Assembly: GCA_030681515.1 (NCBI GenBank)
Contig: JAUXSE010000063.1
Coordinates: forward strand, 62,001 to 126,000
Length of the DNA: 64,000 nucleotides
Source: Geothrix sp.
Lineage (GTDB): Bacteria; Acidobacteriota; Holophagae; Holophagales; Holophagaceae
Reading direction: 5' to 3'
Shown piece by piece: positions 48,101-60,799 of this stretch. The position numbers were made by a program, and so were the translations under genes. The notes below the pieces were generated by a model. The model searched no databases. It was not told the DNA's origin and worked only from the letters and a program-made list of their open reading frames with translations. Within the stretch, counting starts at the first letter, position 1. Each line of letters opens with the position of its first letter.

Positions 48101-48191
48101 GGAGAGTTGTCCGAGTGGTTTAAGGAGCACGCCTGGAAAGTGTGTGTAGGTCAAAAGCTTACCGAGGGTTCGAATCCCTCACTCTCCGCCA
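48101..48191 (+). tRNA. tRNA-Ser, anticodon GGA
   Basis: 91 bases including encoded CCA. The acceptor stem GGAGAGT pairs with ACTCTCC, anticodon loop CTGGAAA (GGA), a long variable arm and a T-loop GTTCGAAT. Its last ~20 bases are copied downstream twice directly and twice inverted. Confidence 0.95.
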
Positions 48192-48505
48192 GATGAAGCC
48201 GCCGCGAGGCGGCTTCTTCCATGAGGCGCGGAGAGTGGGGGATTCGAACTCACTGAATCGCTGGCAGGTAGGCGCCCCTTTTGACAGCCCGGGGGGCTGT
48301 CGAAAGGGATCAGCGCCGTGCCAGCGATTCGTGCGGCCGGAAGGGACGCCGCGCAGCGGTGGCCCTGGAGGGAATCCCTCACTCTCCGCCAGAAAAAGGC
48401 CCCCGCGAGGCGGCTTCTTTCATGAGGCGCGGAGAGTGGGGGATTCGAAGGGAAGGGACGCCGCGCAGCGGTGGCCCTGGAGGGAATCCCTCACTCTCCG
48501 CCAGA
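48172..48505. repeat. Array of tRNA-Ser 3'-end copies with inverted copies between them
   Basis: The tRNA 3' end and next bases, GAATCCCTCACTCTCCGCCA followed by GA (48172-48193), recur at 48372-48393 and 48484-48505. Between them two 24-base segments (48225-48248, 48426-48449) are the reverse complement of the tRNA tail (19 of 20 positions). A 55-base segment at 48339-48393 is repeated exactly at 48451-48505. Nested in the first unit, 12-base arms (48255-48266 with 48319-48330) enclose a further TTGACAGCC hairpin. Nothing codes here; the 48192-48611 gap is this array plus ~100 plain bases. Confidence 0.9.
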
Positions 48506-48611
48506 TGAAGCCAGCAGCCATTAGGTTCGCGGGTTTTTTATCGCCTGCCATAGATGCCAACCGTTCGCTCGCGAGACCAGGAAGCTGACCCAGGCCGGGC
48601 TGACTTGGCCT

Positions 48612-51069: not shown

Positions 51070-51858
51070 TCAGGCCGCGTAGGTCTTGTAGAAGTACCAG
51101 GCCGACAGGGTGAAGCCGATCACCACGACGCCGATCCGCACGGCCATGCGCCCCACGCGGTGGGCCATGTGGGATCCGAAGAGGCCACCCAGACCCGCCG
51201 CGATGGCCATGGGAAAGACCAGGGTCCATTGCGCGTGGCCGGGATGCCGCAGAAACTCCCAGGCCATGAAGGCGAAGATGGCGATGCCGTTGATGCAGAG
51301 GGCCAGCAGGTTCTTCAGGCCGTTCATCTGGTGGATGTCCGTGAGGCCCAGCAGGCTCAGGGCCGCCAGCATGAGGATGCCGATGCCCGCGCCGAAGTAG
51401 CCGCCATAGATGCCGACGATGAACTGGAAGGCCATGGCGGCGATCCACCAACCCGGAGTGCGTTCATGGCCGTGGATCCTCTTCAGCAGCCTGCTGACGG
51501 GATCGTTGGCCGCCAGCAGCACCGTGGCCACCAGGATCAGCCAGGGCACCAGCTGGTCGAAGACCCTCTGGGGCGTCACCAGCATGAGCCAGGCGCCCAG
51601 GGCGCCCCCGATGAGGGAGGGCGGCATCAGGCGGAGCGCGAAGGCCCTGATGCCGGCGAGATCCTCCCGGTGGCCCCAGAATCCGCCGATGGAACCCGGC
51701 CAGAGGGCCAGCGTGCTGGTGACGTTCGCCTGCTGGCCCGTGAGGCCGATGCCCAGCAGCGCGGGAAACGACACCAGCGTGCCGCCCCCCGCGATGGCAT
51801 TGATGGCCCCGGCGAGGAAGGCCGCGGCCAGGACAGTGAGGGTGGACACCAGGTTCAT
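51070..51858 (-). CDS. TSUP family sulfite/sulfonate exporter (TauE/SafE-like)
   Basis: 262 residues with about eight helices. The TSUP start AAAFLAGAINAIAGGGTLVSFP and the mirrored second half (VGIYGGYFGAGIGILMLAAL) are both present. The family exports organic or inorganic sulfur anions. It is last in the 51-58 kb operon, 66 bases after the TPR gene, and may be the efflux step or only a hitchhiker. Confidence 0.9.
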   Translation of the reverse strand: MNLVSTLTVLAAAFLAGAINAIAGGGTLVSFPALLGIGLTGQQANVTSTLALWPGSIGGFWGHREDLAGIRAFALRLMPPSLIGGALGAWLMLVTPQRVFDQLVPWLILVATVLLAANDPVSRLLKRIHGHERTPGWWIAAMAFQFIVGIYGGYFGAGIGILMLAALSLLGLTDIHQMNGLKNLLALCINGIAIFAFMAWEFLRHPGHAQWTLVFPMAIAAGLGGLFGSHMAHRVGRMAVRIGVVVIGFTLSAWYFYKTYAA

Positions 51859-51924
51859 GCCCCCCACTGTGACAGGCCGATCTCCGGGTATTGAAGCCGC
51901 TCTGAGCTGGAAACGGCGGGTCCG

Positions 51925-52512
51925 TCAGCGTCCCGCCAGGAAGTCCGAGGCTTCCTTGTGGCCGGGATAGAGCTGCAGCACCCGCTGGTAGGCCCGGGAG
52001 GCCTCGTCCCGGTTCCCCGACCGGGCCTCGCCCCGGGCCCAGTAGACGAAGGCCGAGGCATCGGAGGGATAGCGGAGGGCCAGTTCTTTGCCGTGGGCCG
52101 CCAGGGTCTTCCACTGCTGCAGCCCTTCCTCGGCCACCAGGAGGCGGAGGTGCGCCCAGTAGTTCCAGGCGCACTGGTGGATCACCTTCCGGCATTCGAC
52201 CGCGGCCTCATTCCACCTGCGCTGGGCGAGGAGGGGGAGGGGGAGCCCGAGCTGGGCATCCAGGGAGAGCGGGTTGGTTTCCAGGGCCTTCCGGTAGCCC
52301 TTGATGGCCTCGTCGTGCCGCCCCTGGAGGTAGGCCAGGTACGCCTGCCGGAGCTGGACCAGCTCGAAGGTCTGGGGAAGGGCCTGGAGAGCCTGGGCGG
52401 CCTGGGCGTAGTTCTTCTGGGCCTCGTACCGGTAGGACTCCGCCCAGGGGTCCCTCTGGGCCATGGCAGGGAGGGCGAGCGCGAGGAGAAGGATCTGCGT
52501 GGGACGGAACAT
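51925..52512 (-). CDS. Secreted TPR protein
   Basis: 195 residues from the ATG at 52512 with AGGAG upstream. Signal peptide (ILLLALALPAMA) followed by about four TPR motifs (QLRQAYLAYLQGRHDEAIKG, SRAYQRVLQLYPGHKEA). It begins 8 bases after the barrel-protein stop and is probably a periplasmic scaffold for the operon's other products. Confidence 0.85.
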   Translation of the reverse strand: MFRPTQILLLALALPAMAQRDPWAESYRYEAQKNYAQAAQALQALPQTFELVQLRQAYLAYLQGRHDEAIKGYRKALETNPLSLDAQLGLPLPLLAQRRWNEAAVECRKVIHQCAWNYWAHLRLLVAEEGLQQWKTLAAHGKELALRYPSDASAFVYWARGEARSGNRDEASRAYQRVLQLYPGHKEASDFLAGR

Positions 52513-52520
52513 GGGGACTC

Positions 52521-53417
52521 CTACCAGGTGTAGTGGATGGACGCCGCGACGAACGGCGTGGTGTACGAGGTGACGGGCGTGGTGGTGCGATCCTCGAACC
52601 GGGAACTCCCGGCCTCCAGGGAGAACCCGGCTCCCTTGGCCCCGCCCCAGGTGGCGCCGAAAGCCCAGCGGCCCGTCTGGTAGTCGCCGAGGGTGTAGAT
52701 GATCGCCAGATCCGTGTCGGCCGCGTAGATGCGCTCCCCCGCGAGCCCCGAAAGGTAGATGCTCCGCGGCTTCATCCCCGCCCCGGGCACGAAGTAGTGG
52801 GTCCAGGAAGCCTTGAAGGCCGTCGTCTGCTCCTCGGGGCCCCCCGTCCCCTTCAGGGTGATGGCGTCCGCGCCCAGGGTGAACCAGTCCATGTTGTCGT
52901 TCACGCCGAACCCGAGGGTGGGGCTCCACTGTTCCGCGCGCAGGCCGCCGTCATAGCGGGACTGGATGAAGCCCAGGTCGAGCCACAGCCGGGCGAATTC
53001 CGGGTGGATGTCGCTGAGGTAGCCCAGGTGGGCCCCGGAGATGGTCGCCGTCTGCTTCGCGAGTCCCTGCTCCTGGAAGGTGACCCGGCCCAGGTCGCCC
53101 TGGATGACCAGCTTGCCCTGGCCCGCGCCGAGGGGGATGTAGAGCCTGCCACCCACCAGGGCGGTGTCCTGGTCCATGGTGCTGGCGTCCCGGTAGCGGA
53201 TGGCATCCCGACCCAGCGCGAGGCGGAACCCGCCCGATTCCCGATCGTCCAGATCCAGGAAGAACCCGCCCGAGGCCAGGCGTTCCCGGACGGCCTCGTC
53301 CGAGTAGCTCAGCAGGGCTCCGCGGACGCCCACGACGCCCTGGGACTCGGTCTGGGCCTGGACGCCCAGGCCAACCGGCAGCAGAAGGAGAGGGACAAGA
53401 CGGCGCATGACTTTCAT
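52521..53417 (-). CDS. Outer-membrane beta-barrel protein
   Basis: 298 residues with a signal peptide (LVPLLLLPVGLGVQAQ) and many alternating, aromatic-ended strands (GGFRLALGRDAIRYRD, WAFGATWGGAKGAGFSLEAG) ending in HYTW, the aromatic C-terminus expected for barrel insertion. It lies 9 bases after the urea-transporter/M23 gene. Likely a small outer-membrane pore or adhesin-type barrel for the same system. Confidence 0.8.
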   Translation of the reverse strand: MKVMRRLVPLLLLPVGLGVQAQTESQGVVGVRGALLSYSDEAVRERLASGGFFLDLDDRESGGFRLALGRDAIRYRDASTMDQDTALVGGRLYIPLGAGQGKLVIQGDLGRVTFQEQGLAKQTATISGAHLGYLSDIHPEFARLWLDLGFIQSRYDGGLRAEQWSPTLGFGVNDNMDWFTLGADAITLKGTGGPEEQTTAFKASWTHYFVPGAGMKPRSIYLSGLAGERIYAADTDLAIIYTLGDYQTGRWAFGATWGGAKGAGFSLEAGSSRFEDRTTTPVTSYTTPFVAASIHYTW

Positions 53418-53426
53418 GGAGGGCTC

Positions 53427-55562
53427 CTAGGAGGGGGTGGGATCGAGGAGGCCGGGGGTGCCCTCGGCCATGGACAGGGAGAGCAGGGTCGCGGACCACC
53501 GCTGGTTGCCGACGCGGGCCCGCAGAGCGGTGGGCCCCATGTCGGGATGGATGCGGGCTTCGGTGACCGCTTTGGGAAGCAGGTGGGGAATCGGGTGCTG
53601 ATGGATTCCCGATTGCCGGAGCATCCCCCGGGCCATCCGCCGGCGGCGATAGCGGCTCCGCAGGCCCAGGAGATCGGCCAGGAACAACGACACCGCCACC
53701 CGGCGCCAGACCGGAACCGGGAGGATCCGGACCGAGGGAGCATCCCGCCAATCAGCCTCCAGGGGGGCCAGCGGGGTGAAGCCCAGGGCCAGCAGCCACA
53801 GATCAAAGAAGTCGTCCCGCGGGCCCTGGCGGTCGTAGCAGCCGAAGGCGGTGTCGGTGCGCTCGAAGGCGACACTGGCCCCGCGGTCGGAGTGGAGCAG
53901 GAAGGTGCCCACCAGATCCTGCTCGACGCGCAGCTTCCGGATCTCCCCGGAGCCCGCGCCGGGGCCCTGGACGCGGTAGCTGAGGACCCGCTGGGCTGGC
54001 AGGAGGAAGGCCCGGGCCAGCCCCGGCCCATCCGATCCGGCCCGAATGGACCAGCCCTCATCGGGCCTGAGGTGCAGATGGAACTCGCCTTCCCGCTCAT
54101 CCTTGGGGCGGCCCACCACGCCCGCCAGATGGAAGGGGAAGGTGGGACTGCCCAGGCGCGCCTCGGTCTGCACGTGCAGGTGGAGGTGAGGCTGGGGAGA
54201 CCGCCCCGAGCTGCCGCAGGCGGCCAGCGGATCCCCGGTCACCACCGCGTCGCCCACCGCGACCCGGAGACTGCCCTGCCGGAGGTGGGCCAGCAGCACG
54301 AAGAGCCCGGAGGGCATCTGGACCACCACATGGTTCCCCCAGTTGTGCTGGGTATCCACATGGCCCGGGGGATTGTCCACGAGATCATCCCGGCAGGCGA
54401 CCACCGTTCCCGCGGCGGGAGCCCGGACGGGCAGGCCGAAGCAGTGGTAGTCCAGCAGATCCATCCCACCGCCCCGGAAGCTGCGGCCTTCTTCCTGGAT
54501 GAAGAAATCCAGCGCGAAGCGCCAGGCCTCCCGATGGGTATGGGGCCCGTCGAATCCCTGGTAGACCTGCCATTCGCCGAAGAAGGGGACGGACAGGGGC
54601 ACGCTTTCGGGATCCACGCCGCGCGCCCGGGCCAACCGCGCCCGTTCCAGGTTGGTTTCCGGCAGGGCCGGCCGTTCAAGGACCAGATGAGGCGGGCGCA
54701 TGGCCACCCGGCGGCGGAGCGCGGCGAGGATCAGGAGGGTCGCCCCCACGAAGGGCATGGCCAGCACCGGCAGGCCAGAGGCCGCCAGGAGCAGGCTTCC
54801 GAGGGCGGCGCCGAGGGCCGCCAGCCCCAGTCCGCCAGCCACGGCCAGCAGACTGCCCCCGGACGGCACGATGAAGATCCCCCCGAGCGCCAGGGCCACC
54901 AGCACATGGTTGAAAGCGGTCCACGGGGAGGCCGTGCCGAGCAGCCCATCCACCACGGAGCCACCCAGGAACCCCGCCACGGCGAACAGGGCCAAGAGGC
55001 GGGAATTCAACAGGATTCCCCCCAGGATCAGCAGGCCCGGGAGGGGGTGGGGCGTGCAGACCACGGAGCCCAGGGCCTTCAGGAACCCCTGCGCCGCCAG
55101 GGGCAGCGGACCTTCCATCCCGGCCATGAGGGGTTCCGCGGAACCGCCCCCCGGATGCACCACCGACATCAGGGCCCAGGTGCCAATGATGAACGGGAGG
55201 CTCAGCACCGGGAGGCGGTCCAGCCGCCACATGAAGTTCATCAGGATCGCCGTGAGGGCCACCGCCAGCAGGGCCCCCAGGGCCAGGTGGGGCAGCAGCG
55301 CCCAGGAGGGACCGGCGAACCCGGCCAGGAACAGTCCCCCCAGCGCGGCGTTGCAGACATAGAGCGGGGAGGCTGCCCAGGGCAGGTTCATCCAGACGGG
55401 GACCAGATGCCCCAGTACCGCCGCCACCAGGCCGGAAGCCCCGATCCCCGGAGTCCAGAAGGTGGCCGCGAGCACCAGCGCCCCGGTGGCGGGCGACTCC
55501 GCGAAGAAGATCGCGGCGTAGCCCTTCAGGAGGGTCCGGGCGGAGGCGCGGAGGAGGTCCAC
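53427..55562 (-). CDS. Urea-transporter-like membrane domain fused to an M23 metallopeptidase
   Basis: 711 residues. Residues ~10-290 are a urea-transporter-like domain with ten or so helices (LLKGYAAIFFAESPATGALV, ILLNSRLLALFAVAGFLGG in each half). Residues ~325-500 are M23 with zinc ligands H343/D352 (THREAWRFALDF), H426 and H461/H463 (QPHLHLHV); the rest (~500-711) is a domain I cannot name. The start has no strong site, 12 bases after the decarboxylase gene. Fusions of this kind occur in other bacteria, but their substrate is unknown. Confidence 0.88.
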   Translation of the reverse strand: MDLLRASARTLLKGYAAIFFAESPATGALVLAATFWTPGIGASGLVAAVLGHLVPVWMNLPWAASPLYVCNAALGGLFLAGFAGPSWALLPHLALGALLAVALTAILMNFMWRLDRLPVLSLPFIIGTWALMSVVHPGGGSAEPLMAGMEGPLPLAAQGFLKALGSVVCTPHPLPGLLILGGILLNSRLLALFAVAGFLGGSVVDGLLGTASPWTAFNHVLVALALGGIFIVPSGGSLLAVAGGLGLAALGAALGSLLLAASGLPVLAMPFVGATLLILAALRRRVAMRPPHLVLERPALPETNLERARLARARGVDPESVPLSVPFFGEWQVYQGFDGPHTHREAWRFALDFFIQEEGRSFRGGGMDLLDYHCFGLPVRAPAAGTVVACRDDLVDNPPGHVDTQHNWGNHVVVQMPSGLFVLLAHLRQGSLRVAVGDAVVTGDPLAACGSSGRSPQPHLHLHVQTEARLGSPTFPFHLAGVVGRPKDEREGEFHLHLRPDEGWSIRAGSDGPGLARAFLLPAQRVLSYRVQGPGAGSGEIRKLRVEQDLVGTFLLHSDRGASVAFERTDTAFGCYDRQGPRDDFFDLWLLALGFTPLAPLEADWRDAPSVRILPVPVWRRVAVSLFLADLLGLRSRYRRRRMARGMLRQSGIHQHPIPHLLPKAVTEARIHPDMGPTALRARVGNQRWSATLLSLSMAEGTPGLLDPTPS

Positions 55563-55574
55563 GGGCGCCCGCGC

Positions 55575-56987
55575 CTACCGCGACAGATTGGCGGCGAAGG
55601 GCCGGGTGAACCGCTCCGGGAGGCGCTCCTGGCCCCGGACGGACTCCAGATCCTCCGGTTCCCGGAGCCGATCCACCTGCCCGTCCTCGCCCACCATGAC
55701 GATGGCCGGGCGGTAGCCGATGAACTGGAGCCACTGGGTGTTGTTGTAGGCGCCCACGGGGCTGAAGACCAGCGGCTCGCCGACATCCAGGGGCGGCAGC
55801 ATGATGCTGTGGCGCACCACGTCTATGTTCATGCACAGCGGCCCGAACAGCGTCGTGTCCTCCGGGAATCCATCCAGCTGACGGACCGGCCGCACCTCGT
55901 GGTGGTACCAGAAGGCCGTGAAGAGGAGGTTCACCCCGGCGTCCAGCACCACGCCGCGCCGGCCGTTCGCCAGGCGCTTGTTGGCGACCACCGATGACGC
56001 GAGGTACCCCGCGTCATCCACCAGCGCGCGCCCCGTCTCCAGGATGAGGACCGGCCTCGGCTTGCCCGCGGCCTCGCGGCCCCGGGTGGCTTCGAGCAGC
56101 GCCGTGGTGATGGCTTCCGCGTACTGCTCGAAGCTCGGCACCACCTGATCCGGGGGCAGGTAGGAGCCCTGCAGGTTGTTCCGGGAGGCGAAGCCGCCTC
56201 CGAGATCGAGGCTTTCGATGACGCAGCCGGTCTGGTATTCAGCCGCCTCCATGAACTCGGCCATGATGCGGGCCTCGGCGGCATAGGCGCGGACATCCGT
56301 GATGAAGGTGCCGATGTGGCTGTGGAGCCCCTTCAGGCGGAGGTGGGGACTGGTCCCGATGCGGCGGGCCGCCTCCATGGCCTGGCCATTCTCGATGTTG
56401 AACCCGAAGCGGCTCCAGGTCTCCGTGTAGCCCGTGTCGAAGTTGAGCCGGATGGCCACCTCCGCCGTGATGCCGAGATCCCGGGCCACGGATTCCACGA
56501 GGTACAGTTCGTCGAGGTTGTCTATGTGGATCCGGGCCCCTTCGGGAAGGGCCACTTCGAGGATCCGCCGGGGCTTCCAGGGCCCGTTGAACAGGATGGC
56601 GTGGCCGGGAACGCCGGCGGCCCGGGCCTTCTGGTACTCGAATTCGGACACGACCTCGGCGAAGGAGCCCTCCTGGTGCATGATGGCGCAGACCGCGCCC
56701 AGGTAGTTCGTCTTGTAGGACCAGCCGAGCTGGACCGCAGGGTAGCGGGACACGAAGGCCCGCCGGAGGCGGCGGATGTTCTCGCGGAGCCTCCGCTCGC
56801 TGTAGATGAACACGGGGGATCCGTGGTCCTTCATGATCTGGCGGATCTCCACGCCGTCCACCCGGTCCAGATGCTGGTGGAAGTGGCCCGCTCCGAACTT
56901 CCCGAACTTGTTCAGCCCCCCCACCCGATGGGGGGTCAGGGTGGGTTTCTGCCAAGGCTGCCGCGGGGCCGTCTCCTGGTCACTCAT
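55575..56987 (-). CDS. PLP-dependent fold type III decarboxylase (diaminopimelate/ornithine decarboxylase family)
   Basis: 470 residues from the ATG at 56987 with AAGGAGAG upstream. The PLP lysine is K92 (SYKTNYL); HSHIGTF, DLGGGFASRNN and ETGRALVDDAGYL bind phosphate, and GPLCMNIDVV carries the cysteine of the second active-site half. It is a LysA/ODC relative, not a clear LysA: the N-terminal ~55 residues are an extra, and there is no lysine operon. It overlaps the ATP-grasp gene by 8 bases. Decarboxylation of an amino acid or its conjugate is inferred. Confidence 0.88.
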   Translation of the reverse strand: MSDQETAPRQPWQKPTLTPHRVGGLNKFGKFGAGHFHQHLDRVDGVEIRQIMKDHGSPVFIYSERRLRENIRRLRRAFVSRYPAVQLGWSYKTNYLGAVCAIMHQEGSFAEVVSEFEYQKARAAGVPGHAILFNGPWKPRRILEVALPEGARIHIDNLDELYLVESVARDLGITAEVAIRLNFDTGYTETWSRFGFNIENGQAMEAARRIGTSPHLRLKGLHSHIGTFITDVRAYAAEARIMAEFMEAAEYQTGCVIESLDLGGGFASRNNLQGSYLPPDQVVPSFEQYAEAITTALLEATRGREAAGKPRPVLILETGRALVDDAGYLASSVVANKRLANGRRGVVLDAGVNLLFTAFWYHHEVRPVRQLDGFPEDTTLFGPLCMNIDVVRHSIMLPPLDVGEPLVFSPVGAYNNTQWLQFIGYRPAIVMVGEDGQVDRLREPEDLESVRGQERLPERFTRPFAANLSR

Positions 56988-58068
56988 GGGACTCTCCTTC
57001 ACGCGCGACACCCGGCGCGAGGGCACCGTGGATCATCATGGTTTCGAAGCTCTGGGGCGATACGATCAGTTCCTGGGCGTGGCGGATGAACATCGTTCCG
57101 ACCAGCGCTTCAGGCAGGGGCTCAGGGTCCATGCCCATCATCCGGGCCAGCAGCAGCTCGGGGAGGTTGCGGCCCACGCCCACCGAGAAGTAGATCCAGG
57201 CCGGGAACCGGGGGTTGATCTCGATGAGGTTGTAGCGGCCCGAAGGGTCGCGCATCAGTTCCAGCTCCAGGGGACCGCGCCACCGGAGGGCCTTGGCCAG
57301 GGCATCGGCCGTATCGGACAGCGCCTGGTCGCGGACGCAGACGCCCGCCCAGGCCTTGCCCTTGTCCGTGAGGGCCCGCTTCTTCATCATCACGGTCCCC
57401 AGCAGATGGCCTTCCCCGTCCCCCACGGCGCTGAGGTTGTACTCCTCGCCCGGCACCAGCTTCTGGACCAGGAGGGGCAGCCCCCAGGCGGCGGAAATCC
57501 GCCGGAAGGCGGCCACGCCCTCGTCCGGATCATGAACGATCTGCGCGTCGTAGAAGGGGCCCTTGACCACGAAGGGGTAGGCCCATCCATCCCGGGGCGC
57601 CGAATGGAAGAACCCGGACTGGGTGACAGTCTTGGTCTCCGGGCAGGCGACTCCCGCCGCCTTGGCCAGTTCGGGGAGCCTTGACTTGTCCCGCATCTGG
57701 AGCCGGGTTTCATCCGGGAGGTAGAGCCGGATCCCCGCGTCTTCGAGGGCTGGGGACAGGCTCACGAGGCTCGGGAGTTCCGCATCGAGGCAGGGGATCA
57801 GCGCGTCCAGCCCTTCGATCCCGTGGATGTCCAGCAGCCTTTCCTTGAGGGCGTCCTGGCCCGTGGAGGGATAGGGGAGCAGGTAGGTGGCGTCGCAGTC
57901 CTCGTGGTAGAGGCCGGGATCCAGGGCGTCATAGCCCAGCCCCACGATCCGGAGGTCGAAGCGGCCCGAGGCCCTGAGGGAGCGGACGACGGCCATGCCC
58001 GGCCCGGGATTGTCCGCCCGGGCGTTCATGCCGGTCACGCCGACGGTCAAGCGGCGCCGGGCAGTCAT
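56980..58068 (-). CDS. ATP-grasp ligase (CPSase-large-like)
   Basis: 362 residues. An N-terminal Rossmann pre-ATP-grasp part (VGVTGMNARADNPGPGMAVV) is followed by the ATP-grasp domain with FVVKGPFYDAQIV, LVQKLVPGEEYNLSAVG, and the Mg site LELELMRDPSGRYNLIEINPR. The family makes amide or peptide bonds through an acyl-phosphate. It overlaps the PqqD-like gene by 4 bases and the decarboxylase by 8, so all three form one translational unit. Substrate unknown. Confidence 0.88.
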   Translation of the reverse strand: MTARRRLTVGVTGMNARADNPGPGMAVVRSLRASGRFDLRIVGLGYDALDPGLYHEDCDATYLLPYPSTGQDALKERLLDIHGIEGLDALIPCLDAELPSLVSLSPALEDAGIRLYLPDETRLQMRDKSRLPELAKAAGVACPETKTVTQSGFFHSAPRDGWAYPFVVKGPFYDAQIVHDPDEGVAAFRRISAAWGLPLLVQKLVPGEEYNLSAVGDGEGHLLGTVMMKKRALTDKGKAWAGVCVRDQALSDTADALAKALRWRGPLELELMRDPSGRYNLIEINPRFPAWIYFSVGVGRNLPELLLARMMGMDPEPLPEALVGTMFIRHAQELIVSPQSFETMMIHGALAPGVAREGESHE

Positions 58069-58355
58069 GGCTTCAGGCTCCCGCTGATCTGAACGGCGAA
58101 GTCATGGATGTCCCGCTCGGCTTCCAGCGGATCCACGTCGAAGTCCCGCTCCACCTCCTCCAGCACCTCGGCGATGTTGCGGTGGCGCAGGAAGATCCGC
58201 AGCAGGGCCAAGCCCGTCTGGTTCAGGGTGAAGCTGTCCCCGCTCACGGGATCGAAGGCGAAGCCGGTATCGCTCAGCGCCAGCCGGGCCAGTACCGTGG
58301 CCCCCGGCAGGGGAAGCGTCTCGTGGAACGGGGGCGGCTCGGAATAGGGTTCCAC
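58065..58355 (-). CDS. PqqD-like (RiPP recognition element) protein
   Basis: 96 residues from a GTG at 58355 with GGAG 6 bases upstream. The PqqD-type winged-helix shape is visible: a beta pair (VLARLALSDTGFAFDPVSGDSF), FTLNQTGLALLRIFLRHRN and a C-terminal helix VERDFDVDPLEAERDIHDFAVQI. PqqD/RRE proteins hold a peptide substrate for a modifying enzyme. It is first in the operon; no radical SAM and no short precursor ORF are visible beside it. Confidence 0.8.
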   Translation of the reverse strand: MEPYSEPPPFHETLPLPGATVLARLALSDTGFAFDPVSGDSFTLNQTGLALLRIFLRHRNIAEVLEEVERDFDVDPLEAERDIHDFAVQISGSLKP

Positions 58356-58457: not shown

Positions 58458-59102
58458 TCACGAACCAGTCAGCCTCCGGGCTTCCTCCCGGCTGAGCACC
58501 TTCCAGGGCCGTGGCACGAAGCCGGGGACCCGGCCCATGTAGTCCCGGTACACCGGGCCGAACCGCGCCAGGAGCTTCTGCTCCTCCATGCGCGATCCGA
58601 CGATGAGGTAGGCCGTGATCCACAGGGCCGATGCGAGCATCCCCTCGCTCATGTCCCGGGTCCAGAGCACCACCAGTGAAAGGGCGTACCAGGGGTGCCG
58701 CACATGCCGATGCAGGGGGGAGATGTGGAACAGGTCCTGATCCTCGCCGGTGCCGCGCCCTTCCCGCAGCTGCCGGAGGCCCAGGAATTCGGCCAGGTCG
58801 TAGGCGCTGGGGCCGGCCACCAGGTAGGCGGCCGCGAGCATGCCGATGCCGTTCATCACCCATGCGAGACTCCCCTGCCAGCGCCAGATCCAGGGTCCGG
58901 GATGGCGCCACAGCAGCCACAGGATCGGCAGGAGGGCCAGGCCGGCGAACCCGTTGTAGAGCAGCCGGTAAGCCGGGATCAGGCGTGGCAGGTGGGCCGC
59001 CACGGCACGCTTGGTCCCCCGGGCGGCCAGGACCGAGTGCAGGGCCCCATAGATGATCCACGCGAGGGAGATCGCGATCAGGCTGGTGGCATCCGTGCTC
59101 AT
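58458..59102 (-). CDS. Isoprenylcysteine carboxyl methyltransferase-like (ICMT/PEMT family) membrane protein
   Basis: 214 residues with about five helices. The family signature HISPLHRHVRHPWYALSLVV (S-adenosylmethionine-binding R-H-P) and the C-terminal SRMEEQKLLARFGPVYRDYM are intact. No clear ribosome site; ATG at 59120 is an alternative. It is separated by ~100 bases from the operon ahead and diverges from psd. Methylation of a lipid or protein carboxylate is inferred; NnrU-type use is also possible. Confidence 0.8.
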   Translation of the reverse strand: MSTDATSLIAISLAWIIYGALHSVLAARGTKRAVAAHLPRLIPAYRLLYNGFAGLALLPILWLLWRHPGPWIWRWQGSLAWVMNGIGMLAAAYLVAGPSAYDLAEFLGLRQLREGRGTGEDQDLFHISPLHRHVRHPWYALSLVVLWTRDMSEGMLASALWITAYLIVGSRMEEQKLLARFGPVYRDYMGRVPGFVPRPWKVLSREEARRLTGS

Positions 59103-59171: not shown

Positions 59172-60104
59172 ATGCAACTGTCCTGGCCCCCACCGGCGCG
59201 CGTGGCGCTCATCCTGGCCCTGCTCTGGGCGGTCTACGTCCTGCTCTGGACGCCGGGCCCCCTGTCCCTCCGCGCCCTGGGCCTCTATCCCAAGAAGGCC
59301 GGATCGAGGCTCGTGGGGTGGGCCGCCACCCGCACCCTGCCGGCCTCCTGGCGCGAGCCGCTGCTGGGCCGCTTCGCGGGCCGCTACGGCATCAATCTGG
59401 CCGAGGCGGAGTATCCCCTCGCGGAGTACCCCAGCCTCCAGGCCCTCTTCACCCGACGCCTGAAGCCCGGCCTCCGGCCCCAGGAGCCGGTGGTTCCAGG
59501 GTCCGTGAACAGCCCCGTAGACGGCCGCATCATCGCCAGCGGCCGCATTGAATCAGGCATCGCCATCCAGGCCAAGGGCCTGCCCTACCGCATCGCCGAA
59601 CTGCTCAGGCACGATCCCGGCGTGGCGCGTTTTGAAGGCGGGCATTTCCTCACCCTCTATCTCTCGCCCAAGGACTACCACCGCATCCACGTGCCGATGG
59701 AAGGCCGGGTCAGCGCCGTGAGCCGCGTCGAGGGCGAGCTCTGGCCCGTGAACGACGCGAGCACGGGAAACCTCCCGCGCCTCTACGAGCGCAACCGCCG
59801 GGCCACCTGGACCGCCCTCGGAACCGGTTCCGGCGCAGGCCTGGAGGTGGCCGCGGTCCTGGTGGGCGCCACGCACGTGGGGGGCGTGGTGATCGCTCCG
59901 CGCTGGCTCGGCGGACGCGATCTGCCGGAGGATGGCGCGTTCTCCGTGGATCTCCTGCCCTGCGCGCCCGGCGATGACCTCGGCACCTTCGAATTCGGAT
60001 CCACCGTCGTGCTGCTGGTGGGCGGGCCCAGGGCCGCGGACTGGACGGCCCTGCGGGCCGGGGGCGACGTGAAGATGGGACAGCGGCTGGGGGCCTACCG
60101 GTGA
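59172..60104 (+). CDS. psd: Phosphatidylserine decarboxylase proenzyme
   Basis: 310 residues from the ATG at 59172. The self-cleavage motif is F275-G276-S277-T278 (usually LGST); S277 becomes the pyruvoyl group. Active-site D117 and H173 are in SPVDGRI and YHRIHVP. It makes phosphatidylethanolamine at the inner membrane; a leading helix (VALILALLWAVYVLLW) anchors it. scpB begins in its stop codon. Confidence 0.94.
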   Translation: MQLSWPPPARVALILALLWAVYVLLWTPGPLSLRALGLYPKKAGSRLVGWAATRTLPASWREPLLGRFAGRYGINLAEAEYPLAEYPSLQALFTRRLKPGLRPQEPVVPGSVNSPVDGRIIASGRIESGIAIQAKGLPYRIAELLRHDPGVARFEGGHFLTLYLSPKDYHRIHVPMEGRVSAVSRVEGELWPVNDASTGNLPRLYERNRRATWTALGTGSGAGLEVAAVLVGATHVGGVVIAPRWLGGRDLPEDGAFSVDLLPCAPGDDLGTFEFGSTVVLLVGGPRAADWTALRAGGDVKMGQRLGAYR

Positions 60105-60799
60105 ACGAATCCGATCTCTTCCATCAGGAGCCCCTCTGGGATGAGGAGGGCGACCTGGCCGGCGCGCTCGAGGCCCTGCTTACCGCCGCGGGCGAAGTGC
60201 TGGATCTGGCGCGGCTCCGCGAACTGACGGGCCTGGGCGATGGCGCCCTCCAGCAGGGCATCGAGAAGCTGCAGGAGCGGTTGCAAGGATCCTGCGGCCT
60301 CCGCCTGCTGGAAGTGGGCGGCGGTTGGCGCATGGCCACGAGCCCCGTCTACAAGGAGATGATCTCGCGCCTGGTGACCACCACCCGCAGCGGCAAGCTC
60401 ACCCCCGCGCAGATCGAGGCGCTGGCCATCATCGCCTACCGCCAGCCCGTCACCATCACTGAACTGAACGCCGTCCGGGGCGTCACCAGCAGCGCCAACC
60501 AGGTGAGGAGCCTCCTGGAACGGCAGCTCATCACGCCCGCGGGCCGCAAACCCGTGGTGGGCCGGCCCATGACCTACGCCACCACCCAGGCCTTCCTGCT
60601 GCACTTCGGCCTGAAGAGCCTGCACGACCTTCCCCGGCTCGCGGATTTCGGCGAAGGCCGCCTGGAGGCCGAGGCCTTGGCGGCCCTGGAGCCACCGCTG
60701 CCCGAGGACGGCCTGTTCGGGGGCATCGCGATGATCACCGGTCAAGAACCGGCCACCGATCCGGAACTGGCGGCATCCAGCGAGCGCCCTGAACCATGA
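60101..60799 (+). CDS. scpB: Segregation and condensation protein ScpB
   Basis: 232 residues from a GTG at 60101 that overlaps the psd stop by 4 bases. The two winged-helix domains are recognisable: EALLTAAGEVLDLARLRELT at the start and LTPAQIEALAIIAYRQPVTI at residue ~103. With SMC and ScpA it forms the condensin-like complex. scpA is not in the window. The zinc-ribbon gene starts in its stop. Confidence 0.95.
   Translation: MNESDLFHQEPLWDEEGDLAGALEALLTAAGEVLDLARLRELTGLGDGALQQGIEKLQERLQGSCGLRLLEVGGGWRMATSPVYKEMISRLVTTTRSGKLTPAQIEALAIIAYRQPVTITELNAVRGVTSSANQVRSLLERQLITPAGRKPVVGRPMTYATTQAFLLHFGLKSLHDLPRLADFGEGRLEAEALAALEPPLPEDGLFGGIAMITGQEPATDPELAASSERPEP

Follow-up and report, generated by a model that had tools for sequence, protein, structure and literature searches.

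Gene Content of the Locus

We analyzed a stretch of 64,000 nt from Geothrix sp. (Acidobacteriota; GenBank assembly GCA_030681515.1, contig JAUXSE010000063.1, positions 62,001-126,000), referred to here as the window, which carries on its minus strand a compact gene block that begins with a PqqD-like protein, an ATP-grasp ligase, a pyridoxal phosphate (PLP)-dependent decarboxylase, and a fusion of a urea transporter (UT) domain to an M23 peptidase. A preliminary description made from the sequence alone had placed seven nearly gapless genes here. All seven open reading frames (ORFs) were found with the same coordinates, overlaps, and gaps, and Pfam models bear out the family assigned to each except the outer membrane β-barrel (52521-53417), which has no Pfam match. 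The first gene (58065-58355, minus strand as are all genes of the block) starts with GTG and encodes a 96-aa protein (Pfam PqqD, 6.9e-8) of the type that serves as a RiPP (ribosomally synthesized and posttranslationally modified peptide) recognition element (RRE). It overlaps by 4 bases the gene for an ATP-grasp carboxylate-amine ligase (56980-58068; ATPgrasp_Ter, 1.8e-9), which in turn overlaps by 8 bases the gene for a type III (alanine-racemase fold) PLP decarboxylase (55575-56987; Orn_Arg_deC_N, 3.6e-33). After a gap of 12 bases follows the UT/M23 fusion gene (53427-55562; UT, 1e-35; M23, 1.6e-12), and further downstream lie genes for the barrel, a TPR protein, and a TSUP permease. Eight proteins, among them the product of the upstream gene, were scanned against NCBIfam, and none reached the cut-off of a model.

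Conservation of the Gene Block

A decarboxylase scan of approximately 85,000 species genomes, in which six peptide patterns outside the N-terminal tail of the protein served as the query, returned 80 loci. These comprise a Geothrix metagenome-assembled genome at 91% identity and, at 46-68% identity, members of the Rhodocyclaceae, other Proteobacteria, Magnetococcales, Nitrospirae, Desulfobulbaceae, Obscuribacterales, other Cyanobacteria, Eremiobacterota, Verrucomicrobia, Planctomycetes, Wallbacteria, Calditrichota, Neomarinimicrobiota, Bacteroidota, and Balneolaceae. Among the loci whose flanks are long enough for the count, the decarboxylase gene has the PqqD gene as a neighbor in 73 of 74, the ATP-grasp gene in 75 of 76, and the UT/M23 fusion gene in 72 of 77; in one cyanobacterium the fusion is encoded on a contig other than that of the decarboxylase. 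The first four genes keep the same order across phyla, and the median distance from the PqqD gene to the ATP-grasp gene is -4, that is, a 4-base overlap. A second co-occurrence test had a starting point other than the decarboxylase and covered 118 genomes of the family to which Rhodonellum psychrophilum belongs. The ATP-grasp ligase was found in 13 of these genomes, the fusion in 14, and both in 13, with each of the 13 pairs located on one contig and the two matches mostly approximately 1.4 kb apart, which is the width of the decarboxylase gene.

The recurrence of the first four genes is far beyond chance, and the PqqD protein, ATP-grasp ligase, PLP decarboxylase, and urea-channel/M23 fusion constitute a conserved core. 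The co-occurrence of the first three genes with the fusion across genomes, which had been put forward as a check on the locus, is thereby confirmed, and the idea that the trio functions as a unit together with the fusion, barrel, and TPR protein is supported. No paper on this gene combination was found in the open literature, subscription papers lying outside the scope of the search, and the block apparently represents a mobile, widespread, and undescribed pathway. A conserved block that is common to more than ten bacterial phyla and has no described function merits a name and experimental work.

Insertion into the Geothrix Genome

In 40 relatives we found no true homolog of the ATP-grasp gene, and in 297 genomes of the phylum other than that of the window none of the decarboxylase or the fusion; the weak matches in these genomes are other ATP-grasp proteins and lone M23 domains. 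The gene for the TSUP (TauE/SafE) permease (51070-51867; TauE, 9.9e-41), which starts at a GTG 57 bases or an ATG 66 bases downstream of the TPR gene, is by contrast present, with 78-89% identity, in all 15 genomes of the genus that were searched. Directly upstream of the block is an MddA-like gene (58458-59102) for a methanethiol S-methyltransferase-like membrane protein (70.6 of 270 bits). In two relatives that lack the insertion (L138 and L140) the site between these genes is empty, with the MddA-like gene directly before the TSUP gene and only approximately 50-150 bases between them. Because of this empty site, genes 1-6 must have been inserted together between two host genes, and TSUP is excluded from the cassette. 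The TSUP gene had been counted as the seventh member of the operon; it is instead a core gene of the genus and a host neighbor flanking the insertion.

In a tree of the decarboxylase and ATP-grasp sequences, those from the window and from L029 are placed beside Rhodocyclaceae, and the cassette was therefore likely transferred from a proteobacterium. With a G+C content of 69.4% versus 66.5%, composition no longer marks the cassette as foreign. No plasmid homologs of the decarboxylase or fusion were found at useful similarity, and a promoter and terminator scan gave no promoter-like site and terminators near the shuffled level.

A Leader-Like Tail on the Decarboxylase

The decarboxylase fold begins near residue 43, which is where the LysA model and solved homologs start matching. 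Residues 12-29 (56901-56954), which precede the fold, form a leader-like tail, WQKPTLTPHRVGGLNKFG. Among the 79 decarboxylases with readable N-termini, 78 carry the motif [YWF]xxPx[ILMV] in the tail, followed by G..(N/S)K(F/Y)G, and the fuller pattern fits 77 of the 79; L041 and L081 first matched at a chance second site, and their tails also carry the motif. The general form across homologs is [YWF]xxPx[ILMV]...GxxNKFG. Because the loci were found by six patterns from elsewhere in the protein, the tail motif is not an ascertainment effect.

Discrete RREs of lasso peptide systems bind leaders with the motif [Y/W]xxPx[L/V/I/F/A] (PMC13381572), also described as YxxPxL (PMC10368454). The aromatic and aliphatic leader residues fill two pockets divided by a Phe, an Asn holds the kink at the Pro, and the hydroxyl of the Tyr is bonded by an Asp (PMC13381572). 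The tails match this leader motif, except that a Bacteroidota clade has Phe in place of the published Y/W. When the PqqD profile was compared with the PDB, the first matches were TfuB1 (6jx3, 1.8e-11) and TbiB1 (5v1u/5v1v, 1.2e-9), both solved with leaders bound, and PqqD proper followed at 0.001. Residues N45, D82, and F86 of the PqqD protein have the same spacing (37, 41) as N33/D70/F74 of LppB (PMC13381572), and N45 and F86 are near-invariant in the family. Tyr tails are paired with Asp82 in 17 of 17 cases and Phe tails with Tyr82 in 18 of 18 (Trp tails with mixed residues; L041 and L081 corrected), a covariation that is only suggestive because the Phe/Tyr state arose once on the tree. Judged from these sequence features, the PqqD protein most likely binds the decarboxylase tail, and the predicted docking is well supported; this probable ligand had been missed in the preliminary description.

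We found no separate precursor peptide, either in a short-ORF scan of the loci or with a profile of the tail in seven whole genomes. No short ORF conserved across lineages lies within 1.2 kb of either block end, and the fuller tail pattern occurs outside the decarboxylase in only three ORFs in all loci, all of them internal and unrelated. The tail profile recovered the decarboxylase in six of the seven genomes, with E of 4e-7 or better; for the Magnetococcales genome G323 it gave weak matches only, the best (0.37) in a 476-aa frame that is probably the decarboxylase. Every other match in the seven genomes is short, with E 0.1 or worse. The preliminary description had noted no obvious precursor and had proposed a scan for short ORFs, and this absence holds: in the loci and the seven genomes, the leader motif is confined to the decarboxylase, with one copy in each genome.

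The Ligase and the Decarboxylase

The ATP-grasp model (pLDDT 93.1) is nearest in fold to the uncharacterized protein 2pn1 (Z 30.8). Of characterized amino acid ligases, it resembles PylC (Z approximately 25, 21% identity) and the L-amino acid ligase 3vot (Z 25.2).

The decarboxylase belongs to a distinct subfamily with the signatures GPLCMNID and GAYNNTQW. Residues K92, H222/H224, GGG263-265, E317, R320, C385, and D389 do not vary among the sequences in which these positions are covered (80-81 sequences). Its nearest solved relative is the N-citrylornithine decarboxylase FigC/FslC (1.1e-53), and BtrK (2j66) matches at 5.6e-23; the FslC family model itself (NF041039) gives 202 bits, under half of its cut-off of 500. 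Met386, next to the catalytic Cys385, does not vary; FigC also has a Met here, in place of the acidic residue by which a free side-chain amine is held, and the position of the Arg in diaminopimelate decarboxylase (DAPDC) is occupied by Thr357. FigC, SbnH, AcsE/AcsD, MccE, and BtrK have been grouped as decarboxylases of conjugated amino acids (PMC7857480). Because of Met386, Thr357, and the likeness to this group, the likely order of reactions would be ligation followed by decarboxylation.

An identity as LysA or a polyamine decarboxylase, named at the outset as what would undo the idea of a dedicated pathway, was ruled out: the protein scores 205 bits against a TIGR01048 cut-off of 297.9, C-M-N-I-D and Thr replace the CES(G)D motif and Arg, and a true LysA is encoded elsewhere in the genome (443 bits). 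The original suggestion that the enzyme acts on basic amino acids is not supported, since other residues stand in place of the acidic and Arg specificity residues, and the protein resembles decarboxylases of conjugated amino acids.

The UT/M23 Fusion

The model of the fusion has a pLDDT of 92.4. Residues 1-313 (54624-55562) form a complete urea transporter fold that aligns to dvUT (3k3f) over 298 residues with Z 38.5. Residues 320-482 (54117-54605) form an M23 zinc peptidase domain with the LytM fold (Z 14.5), in which H343, D352, H426, H459, and H461 are invariant in 49 sequences. The remaining C-terminal region (residues 483-711; 53430-54116) is β-rich, with pLDDT mostly >85, and was barely probed by the fold searches, which were dominated by the two known domains. 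At the positions aligned with the urea-pore residues of dvUT (Q24, E187, T130, and T294), the fusion has A/E/S/Q, A/S/G/W, S, and A/T/S. Urea is thus not implied as the substrate because the pore residues are not kept.

The UT fold has ten helices, an even number. The segments ahead of the first channel helix and behind the last one are rich in Lys/Arg (2.0 and 2.5, versus 0.6 and 0.8 for acidic residues). Because of these positive flanking charges and the even helix count, the M23 domain most likely faces the cytoplasm. Its close relatives include haloarchaeal proteins, from cells without peptidoglycan.

Accessory Genes and Recurrent Neighbors

Nine bases downstream of the fusion gene is the gene for the outer membrane β-barrel, which has a signal peptide and a C-terminal aromatic residue and has homologs in the same slot elsewhere, and after a further gap of 8 bases that for a periplasmic TPR protein (51925-52512; TPR, 2.5e-11). 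A TPR gene follows the core in 41 of 58 loci, and in most of these a gene for a barrel or TPR-barrel separates it from the fusion gene. Automatic counting gave a barrel in 43 of 58 loci, an overestimate, as one of the models used contains TPR repeats; after clustering into families, the single-barrel type accounts for 16 loci and the TPR-barrel type for 19, in addition to five proteins from Verrucomicrobia/Wallbacteria. The barrel type of the window and the TPR-barrel of Verrucomicrobia are related by profile match (97.9%), and no support was found for a shared origin of the barrel in Proteobacteria and the TPR-barrel in Bacteroidota (2.4%). Genes for a histidine kinase and an OmpR-type regulator lie beside the block in 17 of 58 loci, mostly in those without TPR and barrel genes. 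The TPR, barrel, and two-component genes are the only recurrent neighbors in an operon-like position.

In several lineages, RND efflux sets adjoin the cassette (L062:4861-12611, L063:3497-11247, L079:2924-8433, L081:3035-8542, L104:2867-8379, and L038:541-6307), including Magnetococcales genomes without the UT/M23 fusion. Two alphaproteobacteria have an asparagine-synthase-like gene between the fusion and TPR genes (L055:14151-15596 and L056:4028-5521), and a carbamoyltransferase and a transglutaminase-elicitor-type protein are each encoded directly downstream in a single locus (L061:13128-14963 and L090:13445-14749). An antiphage defense function was also considered and dropped, as PADLOC models did not match any of the six proteins.

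Comparison with Known Systems

The closest parallel to the PqqD protein is leader recognition in lasso peptide biosynthesis (TfuB1, 6jx3; TbiB1, 5v1u/5v1v; PbaB1, 9x90; LppB, 9x8z), which shares with the block the discrete PqqD-type RRE class, the ligand motif, and the key RRE residues. However, the motif here is on an enzyme and not on a precursor peptide, and the core contains neither an asparagine-synthetase-like cyclase nor a B2 protease; lasso-type genes near the core are limited to a transglutaminase in one locus and asparagine synthase in two. The pairing of an ATP-grasp ligase with an AR-fold (alanine-racemase fold) decarboxylase that resembles the conjugated-amino-acid group recalls that of BtrJ/BtrK, which act on carrier-bound glutamate in butirosin synthesis, although the block has a PqqD protein in place of the acyl-carrier protein and additionally encodes the membrane fusion and outer membrane components. 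FigC/FslC of rhizoferrin synthesis have the same Met beside the catalytic Cys and the same Thr in the specificity helix, but the decarboxylases of the block differ from them in the GAYNNTQW and CMNID signatures, the N-terminal tail, and the association with an ATP-grasp ligase instead of an NIS synthetase. Each half of the fusion has the full fold of its counterparts (the urea transporters dvUT and UT-B and the M23 endopeptidases LytM and DipM), yet here the two are joined in a single chain that has an additional C-terminal region and altered pore positions. The HPr-rel-A (GAK) system (TIGR04353) also has PqqD near ATP-grasp in a non-RiPP setting; the PqqD protein of the block scores 28 bits against that cut-off of 35, and no kinase-like partner is present.

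The nearest known kind is RRE-guided biosynthesis. The block has an RRE, identified by both the Pfam model and the lasso RREs as best PDB matches; we do not class it as a RiPP cluster because no precursor was found, in agreement with the initial judgment that this is not a standard RiPP cluster.

A Proposed Pathway and Alternatives

We propose that the cassette of six genes, having entered the genome as a single insertion, encodes one pathway. In this proposal, the PqqD protein would act as a lasso-type RRE whose ligand is the decarboxylase tail and not a precursor peptide, and docking of the tail would build a PqqD/ATP-grasp/decarboxylase complex. The ATP-grasp ligase would form an amide, or a carrier-bound conjugate, of an amino acid, and the decarboxylase would then strip the free α-carboxylate of the conjugate, an order as in BtrJ/BtrK and FigA/FigC. 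The M23 hydrolase of the fusion could cleave the conjugate and the inner membrane channel of urea transporter fold could pass the small product, which in diderms the TPR protein and outer membrane barrel would move onward. Taken as a whole, we consider this scheme about evenly balanced between right and wrong. Several points weigh against it. Five genomes (L049, L059, L062, L063, and L068) hold the trio or the decarboxylase with no fusion anywhere in the genome, so the fusion is not obligatory; many loci do without the barrel and TPR genes, and L029, the closest relative, has no barrel. The cytoplasmic placement of the M23 domain depends on the helix parity of the UT fold and on charge counts, a conjugate may not fit through a narrow pore of the urea type, and the covariation of Tyr/Asp with Phe/Tyr amounts to a single switch.

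In an alternative scheme the tail, besides being a docking tag, might itself be a substrate carrier, on which the PylC-like ATP-grasp ligase, brought by PqqD, would load the near-invariant Lys of NKFG or another residue with an amino acid, the decarboxylase would act in place, and the cytoplasmic M23 domain would cut the product off. Consistent with this, Lys is present in 75 of the 78 tails of the looser motif (Thr in three), the M23 fusion is missing as well from the three Magnetococcales genomes with Thr tails, the nearest characterized ligase folds include that of PylC, an enzyme that acylates the side chain of a lysine, and the second half of the motif exceeds what RRE binding needs. However, there is no direct sign of modification, L059 and L049 retain the Lys yet have no fusion, and the Lys could simply touch the ligase, and we regard a carrier role of the tail as unlikely. 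It is likewise improbable that the block makes a small-molecule amine or metallophore, with a structural or vestigial PqqD protein and an N-acyl diamine produced as in rhizoferrin synthesis and secreted. The closeness of the decarboxylase to FigC/FslC (1.1e-53) favors this, and the OmpR-type two-component systems (17 of 58 loci) fit regulated production, but it leaves the conserved tail/RRE pair unexplained, and neither a TonB receptor nor a siderophore synthetase is among the recurrent neighbors.

RiPP clusters typically combine an RRE with modifying enzymes (PMC7470986), and the block could also serve an unusual RiPP whose peptide is encoded elsewhere, with the ATP-grasp ligase and decarboxylase modifying it, M23 as leader peptidase, and the UT domain and barrel as exporter. 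We hold this to be quite unlikely: no conserved short ORF lies upstream or downstream in the loci, the RRE-ligand motif is confined to the decarboxylase in the loci and the seven whole genomes, and a decarboxylase bearing such a ligand would compete with any precursor. The full catalytic set of the M23 domain, the use of this fold by peptidoglycan endopeptidases, and the distant likeness of the decarboxylase to DAPDC point to the cell wall, where the fusion would be a periplasmic peptidoglycan hydrolase and the ligase and decarboxylase would alter peptidoglycan-type amino acids. Such a role is very unlikely, as the ten-helix UT fold predicts a cytoplasmic M23 domain and the charges agree, the close M23 relatives occur in haloarchaea, which have no peptidoglycan, and the decarboxylase lacks the DAPDC specificity residues.

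If the pairing of tail and PqqD protein is real, RREs would be general docking modules beyond their binding of precursor peptides, genome mining that equates a PqqD-like gene with a RiPP would miscall these loci, and the block would provide a first role for a urea transporter fold joined to an M23 hydrolase. A still broader idea is that leader recognition operates generally outside RiPP synthesis: bacteria of many phyla would have transferred the leader motif of RiPP precursors to the start of a metabolic enzyme, letting an RRE bring ligase and decarboxylase together as one machine, in which the tail lysine perhaps serves as a swinging carrier; a cytoplasmic M23 hydrolase would release the product, and a repurposed urea-channel fold would let it out. 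This generalization is tentative, and we think it possible though somewhat doubtful.

Other Features of the Window

Beyond the TSUP gene, at 48101-48512, lies a tRNA-Ser(GGA) gene followed by direct repeats of 60 bases (two copies), 51 bases (two copies), and 29 bases (three copies), which include copies of the tRNA 3' end. On the other side of the block, ARAGORN called a tRNA-Ala(TGC) on the minus strand (60501-60583) that lies inside a ScpB-like ORF (60101-60799) and is probably false.

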